Below, one piece after another: positions 8,716 to 15,744 of a stretch of 64,000 bases of DNA. Position numbers and translations under genes: made by a program. Within the stretch, counting starts at the first letter, position 1; every line of letters begins with the position of its first letter. Where the stretch lies: the NCBI RefSeq assembly GCF_037198285.1, contig NZ_CP147243.1, positions 310,001 to 374,000 on the forward strand, written 5' to 3'. The stretch is from Haladaptatus sp. DJG-WS-42 (GTDB lineage: Archaea > Halobacteriota > Halobacteria > Halobacteriales > Halococcaceae). The notes under the pieces were generated by a model. The model saw nothing but the letters and a program-made list of their open reading frames with translations, had not been told where the DNA came from and did not search any database.

Positions 8716-9828
8716 ATGGGTATAGCAGAAACTTACACGCGTGGGCGGCGGTTTGTCATAGAGCAACCGCTCGCGCTCCTGGTAGGATTCGTCGTTGTCT
8801 TGATGATTATCGACTTGCTTGATGGTCTCTCGACAGGACGAATCCAATTTTCGCGGATCGGGACCCTCGTATGGGATGGTCTCATGCAGGGTCTCGTCAT
8901 CGGGCTTGCCGGTATCGGCCTCTCGATGACGTATAGTATTTTGAACTTCGCAAACTTCGCACACGGCGATTACATCACGAGCGGCGCGTTCGCTGGCTGG
9001 GCAACGACGTACCTCGTCGCCGGGCTTGGCCGTGCAGACGTCGGGTCGTTACTTCTCGTCGGTGCGAGCGGCTCTGTGTTCGGTGGTCAACTCGGCATTG
9101 GCATCACCGAAACGCCGCTTGCCATCATTCTCGGGATGGTTGTGGCGGGCGTGGCTGCGGTCGGATTGTCGCTGTTCATCGACCGCTTCGTCTACCGGCC
9201 GATGCGGGCAGAAGAGGGCATTGCCTTGCTCATCACGAGCATTGGTGTGGCGTTCGCTATTCGCTACCTCATCCTGTTCGTCTTCGGCTCTGACGTGCGC
9301 GGAACGACCGACGCAGGCGGCGTCCCAGAGGTCGCACCGTACTTCGTCGATGGCGCGATCAGAATCAGTATGCACGACGTGACCCTCGTGGTCGCAAGCG
9401 TCGGGCTGATGCTCGGCGTCCACCTCCTGCTCCAGCGCTCGAAGCTCGGAAAGGCAATGCGTGCGATGGCTGACAATAAAGACCTCGCACGGATTACTGG
9501 TATTCCAACCGAAGAAGTTATTCGGGCAACCTGGATTATCGGCGGCGCACTCACCGGCGTTGCTGGCTACATGTTCATCCTCTGGAAGGGGACGATTAGC
9601 TTCAACGACGGCTGGTTGCTCCTCTTGCTCATCTTCGCCGCGGTCATCCTCGGCGGGATTGGCTCTGTGTACGGCGCAATCGCTGGCGGCCTCGTGATTG
9701 GCCTCGCGGCCTCCGTGTCCGTCGTCTGGATTCCGTCCGAGTTCGCCCGGGCATCCGCGTTCATCGTGATGATTCTCATCTTGCTGTTCAAGCCAAGTGG
9801 GCTGTTCAGCGGGAGGGCAACCGCATGA
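8716..9828 (+). CDS. livH: branched-chain amino acid ABC transporter permease LivH
   Basis: A 370-residue inner-membrane permease of the LivH type. Markers are LVIGLAGIGLSMTYSILNFANFAHGD (the LivH N-terminal signature), DRFVYRPMRAEEGIALLITSIG, and the EAA-like cytoplasmic loop KAMRAMADNKDLARITGI. It forms the transmembrane channel with LivM for uptake of Leu, Ile and Val or related hydrophobic substrates. The last four bases overlap livM (ATGA), as expected for a coupled operon. A hydrophobic helix at residues 19-36 precedes the conserved core. Confidence 0.92.
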   Translation: MGIAETYTRGRRFVIEQPLALLVGFVVVLMIIDLLDGLSTGRIQFSRIGTLVWDGLMQGLVIGLAGIGLSMTYSILNFANFAHGDYITSGAFAGWATTYLVAGLGRADVGSLLLVGASGSVFGGQLGIGITETPLAIILGMVVAGVAAVGLSLFIDRFVYRPMRAEEGIALLITSIGVAFAIRYLILFVFGSDVRGTTDAGGVPEVAPYFVDGAIRISMHDVTLVVASVGLMLGVHLLLQRSKLGKAMRAMADNKDLARITGIPTEEVIRATWIIGGALTGVAGYMFILWKGTISFNDGWLLLLLIFAAVILGGIGSVYGAIAGGLVIGLAASVSVVWIPSEFARASAFIVMILILLFKPSGLFSGRATA

Positions 9829-11168
9829 GCGCAAAAGAGATGCTCGAAAACGAGCGGTCTGCACTTGCAGAACTCTGGGAGCGAGACATCGTCAAAGTCG
9901 CTGCTGTCTTCGGTGCGCTTTATTTCGCCTACATCATCGCCGGACTGGCGCTCGGCTTCGAAGTACGCGGGCAGATTAACGCCGTTGCACAACTCACGTT
10001 CTACATCGGCGTCTTCTCGCTGTTGGCACTCGCACTCAACCTCCATTGGGGGTACACGGGCCTGTTCAACATCGGGATTGCTGGCTTCATGGCCGTCGGG
10101 ATTTACACGATGGCGATGGTCTCGAAACCAATCGCCACAGAGGGCGGTGCGGCCTCGGTGGGCGGCCTCGGGCTTCCCATCTGGGTTGGCATCATCGCCG
10201 GGATGGCCGCAGCGGCGTTGCTCGGCTTCATCGTGGCGTTGCCCGCGCTGAAATTGCGCGCTGACTATCTCGCAATCGTGACGATTGCCTTCTCTGAAAT
10301 CGTCAGATTCGGCTACCTCTCTGGAACGTTCCAGAACATCACTATCTTCGGCTACGAAACTGGGACGGGCGGCGGCAGTGGTCTGATTCTCAACTTCAAA
10401 GACCCACTCCAAGCCCTCCTCGAAACGCTGTTCCTCTGGGATGCATATCTCGGCGTCGTGAGCGCGTTTACGGTTGTTGTGCCGGAGAATCCAAAACCAG
10501 TGGTCGATGGCCTCGCCTACGGGATACTGTTGCTCGTCTTCGTCGGGCTGTTCTACTGGTTGTTACAACGCACCGGCGAATCGCCGTTCGGGCGCGTGCT
10601 CAAAGCGATTCGTGAAGACGAAGACGCCGCAAACGCACTCGGCAAGAACACGAACCGGTTTAAAATCAAGTCCTTCATGCTCGGTTGTGCGCTGATGGGG
10701 CTTGCGGGCATTCTCTGGCTGATGAGTACGGGTGCTGTGACGCCCAACTTCTTCCTGCCACGCATCACGTTCTACGTGTGGATTGCCCTCATCATCGGCG
10801 GTGCTGGCTCGAACACCGGCAGTGTGCTCGGCGGCGCAGTGTTCGCTGCGGTGTTGTTCCAGGGGCCACTCTATGTGAAGAACCTGCTCGATACCGCACT
10901 CGACATCCCATCGCGCGGCCCGGCCGACTTCGGCCAAGCAATCGGGCCGCTGTTTTCGAGTCTCGACCCGATGCCGTTCATCATCTTCACGCTGAACAGC
11001 ATCAACACACTCCAGCTCGTGTTCATGGGCCTCGTGCTCATCTGGCTGATGCACAACCGTCCAGAAGGCATGCTCGGCCACCGCAAGGAGATTGCGGCGA
11101 GCATCGACCTCGGGCGGCCTGAAACGACCAAGAAGCCAACGGCAACCGACGGCGGTGACGACCAATGA
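9825..11168 (+). CDS. livM: branched-chain amino acid ABC transporter permease LivM
   Basis: A 447-residue second permease subunit. LALNLHWGYTGLFNIGIAGFMAVG is the LivM hallmark, followed by LKLRADYLAIVTIAFSEI and the EAA-type loop GRVLKAIREDEDAANALGKN. A hydrophilic N-terminal 30 residues and a charged C-terminal tail (about residues 420-447) extend the core. It pairs with LivH in the membrane. The ATGA overlaps with livH and livG indicate translational coupling. Confidence 0.92.
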   Translation: MSAKEMLENERSALAELWERDIVKVAAVFGALYFAYIIAGLALGFEVRGQINAVAQLTFYIGVFSLLALALNLHWGYTGLFNIGIAGFMAVGIYTMAMVSKPIATEGGAASVGGLGLPIWVGIIAGMAAAALLGFIVALPALKLRADYLAIVTIAFSEIVRFGYLSGTFQNITIFGYETGTGGGSGLILNFKDPLQALLETLFLWDAYLGVVSAFTVVVPENPKPVVDGLAYGILLLVFVGLFYWLLQRTGESPFGRVLKAIREDEDAANALGKNTNRFKIKSFMLGCALMGLAGILWLMSTGAVTPNFFLPRITFYVWIALIIGGAGSNTGSVLGGAVFAAVLFQGPLYVKNLLDTALDIPSRGPADFGQAIGPLFSSLDPMPFIIFTLNSINTLQLVFMGLVLIWLMHNRPEGMLGHRKEIAASIDLGRPETTKKPTATDGGDDQ

Positions 11169-11986
11169 GCGATACAGAACAGGTAGCGCAAACGACGGTC
11201 AGTGGTCCAGACCTCACCGAATACCCCCTCGAAGTCGAGGGACTCTACAAATCCTTCGGCGGGATTCAGGCAGTAAACGGAGCGACGTTCAAAGTCGAAC
11301 GTGGCACCATGACGGGGCTCATCGGCCCGAACGGGGCCGGGAAATCCACCACGTTCAACCTCATCATGGGGACGCACAAGCCCGACGCGGGCACTGTGCA
11401 GTTCAACGGTCACAACATCACCGGCCACCCGGCCCACGAGATCGCGAACAGCGGCCTCGTGCGCACTTTCCAGATCGCGCGTGAACTCGCAGACATGACC
11501 GTCTTAGAGAACATGATGCTCGCCCCGAAACACCAGAAGGGCGAGGCACTCTGGCGGTCGGTCGTCCCGTTCGCCCGCAACGACGTGGTCATGCAGGAAC
11601 AGGAACTGCTTGACCGCGCGTGGGGCATGCTCGAATTCTTCGAAATCGACCACCTCGCAGAGGAGTACGCGGGCAACCTCTCTGGAGGCCAGCGCAAACT
11701 GCTCGAAATGGCACGCGCGTTGCTCACCGACCCCGACATGCTCCTCCTCGACGAGCCGTTCGCGGGAGTCAACCCGTCGCTCGAAAAGCGGCTGTTGAAA
11801 CACATCCACGAACTGCGCGAAGAGGGCTACACGTTCCTGATTGTCGAACACGACATCGACCTCATCATGAACAACACCTCGCACGTCATCGTGATGCACC
11901 AAGGAAAGGTGCTGACCGAAGGCCCACCGCAGGAGGTCAAGGCAAACGAGGACGTCATCGAAGCGTACCTCGGGGGGACGGTATGA
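11165..11986 (+). CDS. livG: branched-chain amino acid ABC transporter ATPase LivG
   Basis: A 273-residue ABC ATPase. Visible motifs are Walker A GPNGAGKST, the LivG-specific GLVRTFQIARELADMTVLEN Q-loop region, ABC signature LSGGQRKLLEMARAL, Walker B MLLLDEPFAGVNP and the switch His in VEHDIDL. An N-terminal extension of about 20 residues precedes the domain. It powers transport together with LivF on the cytoplasmic face. Start and stop both overlap the neighbouring liv genes. Confidence 0.93.
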   Translation: MSDTEQVAQTTVSGPDLTEYPLEVEGLYKSFGGIQAVNGATFKVERGTMTGLIGPNGAGKSTTFNLIMGTHKPDAGTVQFNGHNITGHPAHEIANSGLVRTFQIARELADMTVLENMMLAPKHQKGEALWRSVVPFARNDVVMQEQELLDRAWGMLEFFEIDHLAEEYAGNLSGGQRKLLEMARALLTDPDMLLLDEPFAGVNPSLEKRLLKHIHELREEGYTFLIVEHDIDLIMNNTSHVIVMHQGKVLTEGPPQEVKANEDVIEAYLGGTV

Positions 11987-12690
11987 GCCTGCTCGAAGTC
12001 CGCGACTTAGACGCCGGTTACGGCGAGGACTTACAGATTCTCACCGACGTGGACATGGACGTTGGCGAAAGCGAGTACGTGACGATTGTCGGCCCGAACG
12101 GTGCGGGCAAATCGACCATGATGAAGTCCGTCTTCGGACTGACAACCCACATGGGTGGCACCGTAGAGTTCAACGGCGAGGAAATCTCCGGGCTGAACCC
12201 CGAAGAGATTATCCACAAGGGAATCGGGTACGTCCCACAGAACGACAACATCTTCCCGACGCTCACGGTCCAAGAGAATCTGGAGATGGGCGCGTACATT
12301 CTGGACGAACTGCCACAGGATGCCCTCAACGCAGTCTACGAGCGGTTCCCGATTCTCAAAGAGCGCAAAGACCAGAAAGCCGGGACGATGTCCGGCGGCC
12401 AGCGCCAGATGCTCGCGATGGGTCGGGCGCTCATGCTCGAACCCGAACTCCTCCTGCTCGACGAGCCATCCGCCGGGCTTGCCCCCGACCTCGTCATGGA
12501 GATGTTCGACAAAATCGACGAAATCAACGACGCAGGCACGGCCATCATGATGGTCGAGCAGAACGCGAAGGAAGCGCTTCGCCGGTGTGACCGCGGCTAC
12601 GTCCTCGCAAACGGGCAGAACCGCTTTATGGACTCCGGCGACGCACTCCTCGCAGACGACGAAGTGCGCCAAGAGTTCCTCGGCGGGTAA
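11983..12690 (+). CDS. livF: branched-chain amino acid ABC transporter ATPase LivF
   Basis: A 235-residue ABC ATPase starting MSLLEVRDLDAGYG at 11983, overlapping livG by ATGA. Motifs are Walker A GPNGAGKST, GIGYVPQNDNIFPTLTVQEN (LivF-type Q loop), a signature reading MSGGQRQMLAMGRAL (Met in place of the usual Leu), Walker B LLLLDEPSAGLAP and the H-loop position occupied by Gln in MMVEQNA. The Gln is normal for LivF proteins. It is the last gene of the operon and is followed by a T-rich terminator. Confidence 0.93.
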   Translation: MSLLEVRDLDAGYGEDLQILTDVDMDVGESEYVTIVGPNGAGKSTMMKSVFGLTTHMGGTVEFNGEEISGLNPEEIIHKGIGYVPQNDNIFPTLTVQENLEMGAYILDELPQDALNAVYERFPILKERKDQKAGTMSGGQRQMLAMGRALMLEPELLLLDEPSAGLAPDLVMEMFDKIDEINDAGTAIMMVEQNAKEALRRCDRGYVLANGQNRFMDSGDALLADDEVRQEFLGG

Positions 12691-12773: not shown

Positions 12774-13616
12774 ATGGCCCCTCCGCTCACTCGTCGCGAA
12801 ACGCTACTCGCAGGTGGCACGGCACTCGCCACACTCGCAGGGTGTGTCAGTTCGTCGCCTTCCGAATCGGAAGAGAACGCCACGACAACGTCGCCCCCAG
12901 CAACGACGACGGAATCAGCAGCAAGCGTCACCGTCAACGCTGTCAAGGTGACGCCAACAATCGTCACGTTCAACTCGCCCGATTCGACCCACACGATGGG
13001 CGAAAAAGACGAACAGTTCGCGCTTATCCGGGTATCAGCCGAGGAGGCGAACGCCCCTGCCCGCGACGATTTCTCGATTGGAGTCGGGGATTCGAACTAT
13101 GCATCCCAGCCAATGGATTACGGGGAGCGATACAGCCGAATGTCGGGCTATCGGACGTTCTATGGCGAAGAATCATCCGGCTACCTCTTGTTCGTGCTTC
13201 CAAAGCCGATCTCGAGCGAGGAGGCCAGCCTGCAGTGGCCGAGTGGGGAGTACGCATTCGAGGCGGACACAGTCGCCGCGCTCTCCCAGCCACCGACGGA
13301 CTTCGCAGTGCGCGAATTTTCCACCCCGGAAACAGTCAAAAGCGGCACAGAGGTCACCCTCACCTTGACCGTCGAGAACACCGGAAGCGCCGATGGAACG
13401 TTCGTCGGGGCGCTCAACCGAATCGGCCCACAGGTTGCCTACACGCCCGAAAAATGGGTCGAAGTCTCGATTCCGGCGGGCGAGTCACGAACGTGGACGT
13501 ATTCCTACCGGCCGACCACTGGAGACGGCGGAGAAGGGTCGATGACGTATCGGATGCCGTGGCGAAACGGGAGCGAGGAGACGACCACGACTCTCGAATC
13601 GGACGACACTGAATAG
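12774..13616 (+). CDS. Tat lipoprotein with CARDB-like domain
   Basis: A 280-residue surface lipoprotein. The signal has a twin-arginine motif (TRRETLLAGG) and a lipobox LAGC (Cys24), followed by a Ser/Thr/Glu-rich linker to about residue 50. From about residue 180 a beta-rich segment (VKSGTEVTLTLTVENTGSADG and VEVSIPAGESRTWTYSY) resembles the CARDB/NEW3 adhesion-type fold. The middle region is not recognised. It sits between livF and the convergent livK gene but has no evident transport motif. Function is unknown. Confidence 0.75.
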   Translation: MAPPLTRRETLLAGGTALATLAGCVSSSPSESEENATTTSPPATTTESAASVTVNAVKVTPTIVTFNSPDSTHTMGEKDEQFALIRVSAEEANAPARDDFSIGVGDSNYASQPMDYGERYSRMSGYRTFYGEESSGYLLFVLPKPISSEEASLQWPSGEYAFEADTVAALSQPPTDFAVREFSTPETVKSGTEVTLTLTVENTGSADGTFVGALNRIGPQVAYTPEKWVEVSIPAGESRTWTYSYRPTTGDGGEGSMTYRMPWRNGSEETTTTLESDDTE

Positions 13617-13659: not shown

Positions 13660-15024
13660 TTACTGGCCGAGGGCTTGTTCGACAACCGACGTGTACGAGG
13701 ACTCGCCGATGTTGAACGCAACCTTGTTCGTGACCGTGCCGCCGAAGCTTCCTTCGAACACTTCTGCGAAGCGGTCGGACAGTTGCTGGCCGTAGTCGTT
13801 GTTGACGAACAGCGTCGCGGCTGTCGAACCGCTGAGGCGCTCTGCTGCGACCTGCGCCATGACGCGACCCTGCAGGAAGTCAGAGGGTGCCGTCCGGAAG
13901 ATGTAGTCGTCGTCTTCCAAGTTGGAGACAGACAGTGCCGTCGAGGACGGCGAGCAGCCAACGACCTGGTTCGGGATGAACACTTGCTGTGAGACGGGCA
14001 CGTTGACACCCGAGGATGCAGACCCACACACTGCGGGGTAGCCTGCATTGACGAGTGCCTGTGCGGCCGCCACACCGGAGTCCGGCGACGTCTGCGTGTC
14101 TTCGACCTGTGCATCAACGGTGATGTTGATGTTCGCATCGTTAACCTGCAGTGCGGGCAGGCGGGCTGCGTTAATCATCGGCTGCCCGACTGCGGCGAGG
14201 TCGCCGGTCTCAGGCAGGAGGATTCCAACCTTTACTTCGCGGCTGCCGCTGCCGGGTGCAGAGTCGGCCATCGGGCCGGAGCCGTCTGGGTTCTCGCTCT
14301 CGAAGTTCTGGGTGTCCTGTGCGGGCGAACTCTGGTTCGCGCGGTCGAACTCCCAGACGTCGTAGGCTGCGGACGCCGGGTCACCCTTGTCATCGAAGTT
14401 GACTGCGGAGGATGCACCCTGATAGTTGATGTCGTCACCGGCCGCGGCGGCTTCGACAGCATCAACGAAGTTCTCTGGACCGAACTCTTCGCCGGATGGG
14501 TTTGCGATGCGGCGCAGTTGGTCACGGATGTCCGTCCCGTTGTTTGCGCCTGCGGCGACGTTTGCGAGGATGAGGACTGCAACCGAGTCGTACGACTGGG
14601 AGGTGAACACGGACGGTGCCGCGCCGAACTCGTCTTGGAACAGTGATTCGAACGCTGCCTGGTTTGGCCCGCCTGCTGCGGGGGCCGTCCCGGTCACGTT
14701 CGCCATGTCGTTACCGACCTGGTCTGGGAGGGTGTTAGAGCGAAGCCCATCAGGTACCAGAATCTGTTCGCTGCCGTCGCTCAGGTTGTAGTAGTCACGG
14801 AACAGCTGGATACCCGACTCTGGGTAGCCAATCACGGTGATGACGTCTGGCGAGCCGTCCCCGCCGCCACCGCCACCGCCGCCGGTCGTGGTGGTACCGC
14901 CACCGCCGCCGCTCGTGGTCGTCGTCTCCTCACCGTCCGGACTGCCGATACAACCGGCCAATCCAGCAATCCCTGCTGCGCCAAGTCCCTTAAGGAACCG
15001 TCGGCGCTCGTTATTTGGTGCCAT
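13660..15024 (-). CDS. livK: LivK-type substrate-binding lipoprotein, circularly permuted
   Basis: A 454-residue ABC substrate-binding lipoprotein: Tat signal with RRRFLKG, lipobox LAGC (Cys25), and a Gly/Thr linker to about residue 58. The two halves of the type I binding fold are in swapped order. Residues 59-227 (ITVIGYPESGIQLFRD through YQGASSAVNFDDKGD) correspond to the C-terminal half of ordinary LivK proteins. Residues 263-454 (KVGILLPETGDLAAVGQP through FNIGESSYTSVVEQALGQ) correspond to the N-terminal half. A 35-residue Ser/Gly/Asp-rich linker joins old C-terminus to old N-terminus. The frame is uninterrupted and the signal is intact, so the protein is probably functional and serves livHMGF on the opposite strand. 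Confidence 0.88.
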   Translation of the reverse strand: MAPNNERRRFLKGLGAAGIAGLAGCIGSPDGEETTTTSGGGGGTTTTGGGGGGGGDGSPDVITVIGYPESGIQLFRDYYNLSDGSEQILVPDGLRSNTLPDQVGNDMANVTGTAPAAGGPNQAAFESLFQDEFGAAPSVFTSQSYDSVAVLILANVAAGANNGTDIRDQLRRIANPSGEEFGPENFVDAVEAAAAGDDINYQGASSAVNFDDKGDPASAAYDVWEFDRANQSSPAQDTQNFESENPDGSGPMADSAPGSGSREVKVGILLPETGDLAAVGQPMINAARLPALQVNDANINITVDAQVEDTQTSPDSGVAAAQALVNAGYPAVCGSASSGVNVPVSQQVFIPNQVVGCSPSSTALSVSNLEDDDYIFRTAPSDFLQGRVMAQVAAERLSGSTAATLFVNNDYGQQLSDRFAEVFEGSFGGTVTNKVAFNIGESSYTSVVEQALGQ

Positions 15025-15049: not shown

Positions 15050-15060
15050 TTTATAAAACT
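15050..15060 (-). promoter_or_regulatory. livK promoter
   Basis: On the minus strand AGTTTTATAAA (15050-15060) is a strong TATA box, 26-36 bases before the livK ATG at 15024, predicting a very short leader. Confidence 0.6.
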
Positions 15061-15120: not shown

Positions 15121-15669
15121 TCAAATGTCACGACAATCGGGGCAAACAAGCTGCCCGTTGACATTCGCTAAATCTCTGGTTAACGACCCACAGACCTCAC
15201 AGATGCTTTGATTCGAATACTCGGTATCGAGTGGATCCGCATCAGAAAGGGTCGGCTCTGTGTCGACTTCGTCGCCAGCACCGAGGTGGCCAAGAACCGA
15301 TGCGGTAACCAAATCACGTTCGGTAACGATTCCGATAGGTTCGGTGCCTTCAAGCACGACGAGACGACCAGCATCCCCCCGCGTGAGCATGCTCGCTGCT
15401 TCCTCTACTGGCAAATCAGTCGAGACGGTGACGATACCGGGATGCATCACATCAGAAACGGTTGCAGAACTCGGATCCCTCCCGTTGAGAAACAGGCCAA
15501 GCATATCGCCTTCGGTGACGAGCCCAACGACCTCTTGCCCGCGTAAAACCACGGCACAGCCCTGTCCTTCGTCGCGGATGAGTTGGGCCGTGTTGACAGC
15601 CAAGTCAGCCTCGCTCACCCCGACAAATTCACGGGTCATCACATCGCGAATCGTGACGGTATCTCCCAT
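15121..15669 (-). CDS. two-CBS-domain protein with C-terminal zinc ribbon
   Basis: A 182-residue protein starting MGDTVTIRDVMTREFVGVSE. Two CBS motifs occupy about residues 7-65 and 68-125 (VVGLVTEGDMLGLF; DVMHPGIVTVSTDLPVEEA; PIGIVTERDLV). These usually bind adenine nucleotides or S-adenosyl ligands as sensors. The C-terminus holds CEVCGSLTRDLANVNGQLVCPDC, a treble-clef or zinc-ribbon pair of CxxC motifs. CBS plus zinc-ribbon proteins are common in haloarchaea as presumed regulators. The partner is unknown; it is a single-gene unit here. Confidence 0.85.
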   Translation of the reverse strand: MGDTVTIRDVMTREFVGVSEADLAVNTAQLIRDEGQGCAVVLRGQEVVGLVTEGDMLGLFLNGRDPSSATVSDVMHPGIVTVSTDLPVEEAASMLTRGDAGRLVVLEGTEPIGIVTERDLVTASVLGHLGAGDEVDTEPTLSDADPLDTEYSNQSICEVCGSLTRDLANVNGQLVCPDCRDI

Positions 15670-15744
15670 ATGAGAATGTTTCACACACTAGGGCTAAAAG
15701 CTACCTCCAGCATGCTTAAGGATACGCCCGCCGTATGTGTGTAA

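Follow-up and report, generated by a model that had tools for sequence, protein, structure and literature searches.

By its sequence, the gene at positions 13660 to 15024 of the window (the whole 64,000-nucleotide stretch of Haladaptatus sp. DJG-WS-42 analysed here) encodes a natural circular permutation of a LivK-type binding lipoprotein, with the C-terminal half of the normal protein placed first and the N-terminal half last. We consider it quite likely that this is a functional LivK permutant made by duplication and trimming, and that one locus has seen repeated changes of chain order without loss of the fold or of the partner transporter. With the normal chain divided into three segments, three orders are found: N (S1-S2-S3), PA (S3-link-S1-S2), which is that of the window, and PB (S2-S3-link-S1). 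The relevant features of the window are the following.

13660..15024, minus strand: circularly permuted LivK-type substrate-binding lipoprotein gene, 454 amino acids plus stop (profile, PDB and genome searches)
14950..15024, minus strand: Tat signal with lipobox, residues 1-25 (...RRRFLKGLGAAGIAGLAGC) (sequence; NCBIfam TIGR01409 above cut-off)
14854..14949, minus strand: Gly/Thr-rich tether, residues 26-57 (sequence; predicted disordered)
14341..14853, minus strand: S3, the C-terminal half of normal LivK, placed first, residues 58-228
14242..14340, minus strand: linker from the old C-terminus to the old N-terminus, residues 229-261 (sequence comparison, structure prediction)
13663..14241, minus strand: S1+S2, the N-terminal half of normal LivK, placed last, residues 262-454
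15050..15059, minus strand: TATA-like element (coding strand GTTTTATAAA), 26-35 bases upstream of the ATG (sequence; putative function)
8716..9828, plus strand: livH-like permease (putative partner, from synteny)
9825..11168, plus strand: livM-like permease (profile match, synteny)
11165..11986, plus strand: livG-like ATPase (profile match, synteny)
11983..12690, plus strand: livF-like ATPase (profile match, synteny)
15121..15684, minus strand: CBS-domain gene, which in many haloarchaea marks the locus on the upstream side of the binding-protein gene

The stop codon of the LivK-type reading frame occupies 13660-13662 on the minus strand. The TATA-like element would be compatible in its position with a leaderless haloarchaeal transcript, which fits and supports the chosen ATG start. 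The Tat lipoprotein signal and the Gly/Thr linker that a preliminary description had placed in front of the protein are both seen, with the lipobox cysteine, identified by inspection, at residue 25. The same description had counted a linker of 35 residues between the old termini. A linker is present, but it includes residues 235-242, a predicted beta-strand that corresponds to the old C-terminal strand of the normal protein. Because this last normal strand belongs to the core, the joiner that was really added is shorter, approximately residues 243-261, and thus nearer 19 than 35 residues. Relatives of the PB form are cut at the boundary between S1 and S2, which lies near residue 300 (about 14124). 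Between livF and the binding-protein gene, at 12774-13616, lies a lipoprotein-like gene of 280 amino acids with a weak choice-of-anchor D match below cut-off, present in some relatives only (e.g. L010). The same genome also carries a distant LivK-like paralogue in normal order (G000:C1:135821-137095, loci L002/L115; about 33-35% identical), which has no livHMGF of the window's type alongside.

The swapped halves were recognised with profiles and with solved structures. Residues 263-451 match positions 1-186 of Pfam PF13458 (Peripla_BP_6) and the first half of the protein, residues 58-229, matches positions 233-351 of the Pfam ANF_receptor profile, so that the two profile halves stand in inverted order relative to canonical LivK. 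The encoded chain scores 103.9 bits against PF13458, with both profile parts matched (curated cut-off 31.7), whereas the reordered chain (260-453 followed by 58-228) gives a single continuous match to positions 1-311 of 343 with 123.5 bits. Similarly, the best PDB match of the encoded order (E 2.4e-11) covers one half only, and the reordered chain aligns in one continuous block with LivK TM1135 of T. maritima (3td9; E 2.2e-16, residues 3-315 to 17-328). The swap proposed in the preliminary description, as well as its placing of the halves at residues 59-227 and 263-454, is borne out by the Pfam matches and by alignments that become continuous only once the chain is reordered. Judged by these matches, the protein is by descent a permuted variant within the PF13458/LivK-type (HAAT) family and not a canonical LivK.

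Relatives of the window protein occur in 221 of the 293 genomes of the order. Homologues with the same order were sought among them and found, collinear and full-length or nearly so, in about 110 of the 293 (a hand count from the match list), at 48-95% identity; PA carriers include Haloferax, Halorubrum, Halorussus, Haladaptatus, Haloquadratum, Halobellus, Haloglomus and Halospeciosus. Normal-order relatives reach up to 63% identity within a half. Among the matches listed in a phylum-wide search of 393 genomes, the full-length collinear ones fall only inside the order and those outside it are split into halves; bacterial matches (Halomonas, Nitrincola) have the normal order. The preliminary description had considered that ordinary haloarchaeal LivK proteins might already share the swapped order. 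This order is indeed old and widespread in haloarchaea and not peculiar to the genome of the window, but normal-order orthologues sit at the same syntenic locus, so that "permuted" stays the right description. At G162:C2:2081075-2083870 the permuted gene is interrupted by some 1.4 kb, which may be an insertion.

Genes of all three forms share one locus, [CBS]-SBP> <livF-livG-livM-livH-pgk, where SBP is the binding-protein gene: livFGMH is convergent with it, a CBS-domain gene is often present and pgk often follows livH. The window conserves this synteny, with its livHMGF-type permeases and ATPases linked to the gene at 8716-12690, and LivF across the three forms is mostly 70-85% identical to that of the window. 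Given this common locus and the similarity of LivF, N, PA and PB are best read as orthologues whose chain order was altered in place. At two Haloquadratum walsbyi loci (L050, L051), livF is not next to the permuted gene but about 6 kb away.

The PA cut falls in a loop of lobe 2, between profile positions ~187 and ~233, so that the whole first ~190 residues are moved. The loop is identical in all PA groups (...AL[S/G] before the cut, PD... after it). The PB form consists of the signal, the equivalent of residues ~304-453 of the window protein, then of 58-228, the linker and, at the C-terminus, 260-300; its new cut lies between alpha1 and beta2, i.e. after the first beta-alpha unit. First recognised at four loci and then in further assemblies, PB is known from five distinct sequences, which form two groups. 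All those found so far come from haloarchaeal assemblies that are metagenome-assembled genomes or look like them:

L070:96-1409, PB gene
L073:2017-3387, PB gene
L068:7860-9191, PB gene
L069:7848-9191, PB gene
L169:1471-2847, PB gene

The PB linker is homologous to that of the PA clade of the window (DTQSFEG.NP.G.GPSAD..PG), and the seam between S2 and S3 in PB is intact and of exactly normal length. The linkers of the minor PA clades have no recognisable homology to that of the main clade. Some relatives retain a small overlap at the PA cut (end ALSGPEN-stop, start GGPEGLVV), and one is also left at the PB cut (end EADLDIS-stop, start LEINPTVEDT).

A tree of 98 binding proteins, built on reordered sequences with bacterial proteins as outgroup, places PA in four groups among normal-order proteins, with PB nested inside the main PA clade. 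The chain order changed more than once, with at least two changes between PA and PB on these trees. With quick tree searches throughout, LG+G4 for the 46-locus tests, and p-values that are somewhat optimistic since the tested groups were named after the first tree had been inspected, the AU test leaves a single permuted clade unrejected on the binding protein (p 0.151), on its N-half (p 0.105) and on 46 loci (p 0.117), but it is rejected by a LivHMGF concatenation of 1312 columns from the same loci (p 5e-5, or 1.4e-6 when two long branches are left out) and by binding protein and LivHMGF combined (p 6.5e-4). The 46-locus tests reject a single PB clade, with the same optimism in the p-values: p is 7e-4 for the binding protein, 2e-4 for LivHMGF and 7e-8 for the two combined. 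In a wider set of 80 binding proteins, a single PB clade has p 0.06.

PA may have had one origin or several, the binding-protein tree allowing one permuted clade and the LivHMGF trees rejecting it. The use of one identical cut loop by all PA groups points to one origin or to strong constraint, and the different linkers, together with the trees of the neighbouring genes, point to several. A single ancient permutation has, in our estimate, close to an even chance: PA would have arisen once, and its scatter among normal-order relatives would reflect recombination or transfer that replaced only the binding-protein gene, re-sealing to the normal order, or tree error. Several chance events at exactly the same loop would be improbable unless strongly constrained, and genomes holding permuted and normal-order relatives at separate places (e.g. 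G004, G020, G148) offer possible templates for recombination. A single event is harder to reconcile with the LivHMGF and combined tests, with the unrelated linkers of the minor clades and with the four separate PA groups of the first, bacterially rooted tree. That this one locus underwent several independent permutations, three or four at the lobe-2 loop and two more at the second loop, all working with the same transporter, is a reading we hold tentatively, at somewhat below even odds.

The permuted chain is predicted to fold. AlphaFold, run on an alignment of 48 permuted relatives, returned a regular alternating beta-alpha fold (pLDDT 82.9, pTM 0.79) that is of low confidence or disordered only in the N-terminal tether (pLDDT < 50 in residues 1-55); for the PB form, with 5 sequences only, pLDDT was 31, too low to be informative. 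Foldseek against the PDB ranked Leu/Ile/Val-binding (LivK) structures on top over ~190 columns (TMt 0.40-0.49), i.e. one half, as a sequential comparison of a permutant must give. Relative to homologues at 72-95% protein identity, dN/dS is about 0.10-0.20 and the differences fall mostly at third codon positions; the permuted gene is under purifying selection. Residues invariant among the 48 permuted proteins are present in both halves. The product is predicted to be exported and retained at the cell surface through its Tat signal (TIGR01409) and lipobox cysteine. It would be a functional lipid-anchored binding protein of an importer of branched-chain or other amino acids (HAAT-type), this being the predicted substrate class, and on synteny and conservation it probably delivers its substrate to LivHMGF. 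In PA the lipid anchor would now enter lobe 2 and not lobe 1, with lobes assigned as we take them to lie from general knowledge of type I binding proteins. The pairing of N, PA and PB alike with orthologous LivHMGF suggests that the docking surfaces do not depend on chain order.

Binding of another HAAT substrate (an amide, an aromatic acid or a GABA-like compound) in place of branched-chain amino acids, with the order tied to specificity, seems to us unlikely though worth weighing. Solved PF13458 relatives found with Foldseek bind varied ligands (leucine, GABA-receptor type, p-coumarate, hydroxybenzoate), and the match to NCBIfam PRK15404, the E. coli-type LivJ/LivK subfamily (NF011933), reaches 48 bits, below its cut-off of 477. 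Against this, the top sequence and fold matches are Leu/Ile/Val-binding proteins, and the NCBIfam matches of the livG and livF genes lean to LivG and LivF, though below cut-off.

As for the origin of the permutation, a model of permutation by duplication has been described (PMC3320104). Following the duplication route that we favour, the mature domain would have been duplicated and fused head to tail (S1-S2-S3-link-S1-S2-S3), and the fused copy would then have lost parts of both its ends, with the Tat/lipobox signal retained in front; different trimming would yield either PA or PB. The PA chain would then begin with the beta-strand of lobe 2 that comes after residue ~193 in the normal protein, run to the old C-terminus, pass through the short joiner to the old N-terminus and end at the cut site. 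Such a model would account for the linker common to PA and PB and for the short overlaps that persist at some cuts. Local duplication does occur at the locus, as indicated by tandem PA-PA gene pairs upstream of one livHMGF set in Haladaptatus (L059, L061, L062, L063). A tandem PA pair is also found at L027, where livHMGF lies outside the stretch examined. The tandem duplication and trimming put forward in the preliminary description are therefore plausible, but no fused intermediate was found among the sequences examined: the open reading frames of 167 relatives include no fused tandem or double-length gene, and within 3 kb of the gene there are no duplication remnants except the Haladaptatus-type tandem pairs. 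It also speaks against this route that a PB nested in PA needs a precise re-sealing of S2 to S3, and simple trimming of a PA-PA tandem predicts none without a precise deletion.

Fission and fusion, in which the halves were once separate genes and were joined in the other order, is an accepted route to circular permutation (PMC3320104). We judge it improbable here, as both halves always lie within one reading frame in the relatives examined, and two cut points sharing one linker type are left unexplained by the fusion of one pair of half-genes. An assembly artefact, a chimera, chance or a decaying pseudogene can be dismissed with near certainty, since the order is kept collinearly in about 110 genomes from independent projects, single-contig genomes included, the genome of the window is itself one 2.78 Mb contig (97.55% completeness), and the frame is intact with a dN/dS of about 0.1-0.2.

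One clear precedent exists among type I binding proteins: TpMglB-2 (Tp0684), from Treponema pallidum and its relatives, is naturally permuted and was assigned to the "Type Ic" ligand-binding proteins (PMC4990184). Like the window protein, TpMglB-2 belongs to an ABC importer, is lipid-anchored and is kept in its permuted form within a clade, but it is bacterial and binds glucose (PMC4990184), whereas the window protein is archaeal and of LivK/HAAT type by its Pfam and PDB matches, with no MglB-type sugar-binding homology. In TpMglB-2 the cut lies in the N-lobe, the first three strands being moved to the C-terminus and a fourth hinge crossover being needed (PMC4990184). The window protein lacks this cut; among the haloarchaeal forms, PA is cut in lobe 2 and PB after the first beta-alpha unit, and both, unlike TpMglB-2, have normal-order orthologues at the same locus. 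Anchoring was proposed by the authors of that study as a possible reason for the permutation (PMC4990184). LivK/LivJ-type PF13458 proteins (TM1135, 3td9; E. coli LIV-binding protein, 1z15) are homologous to the window protein in both halves and resemble it in their livHMGF neighbours and in the signal and anchor in front; they differ in the order of the halves and in the new joiner between the old termini. Repeated or duplication-based changes of order within one family are also known from DNA methyltransferases and from saposin and swaposin (PMC3320104); in the haloarchaeal case, the proteins that differ in chain order are orthologues from a single syntenic locus and a single archaeal order. 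Among open-licence papers, we found no description of permuted archaeal or LivK-type binding proteins.

As a rule, a natural circular permutation comes to notice in a comparison of distant proteins, when traces of its origin have already been lost. The N, PA and PB forms, as close orthologues that are about 50-75% identical and share a locus and partner genes, make the route, the number of events and the functional cost directly testable; three chain orders at one chromosomal spot amount to a natural experiment in protein chain rewiring. Profile- and fold-based annotation misreads this common haloarchaeal protein, giving it a half-length match and missing the other half. Biosensor design makes wide use of permuted type I binding proteins, for which the haloarchaeal forms provide natural templates. 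If several independent permutations did occur, the locus would be a recurrent hot spot, at which chain order may be nearly neutral or may adjust the attachment site of the lipid anchor.
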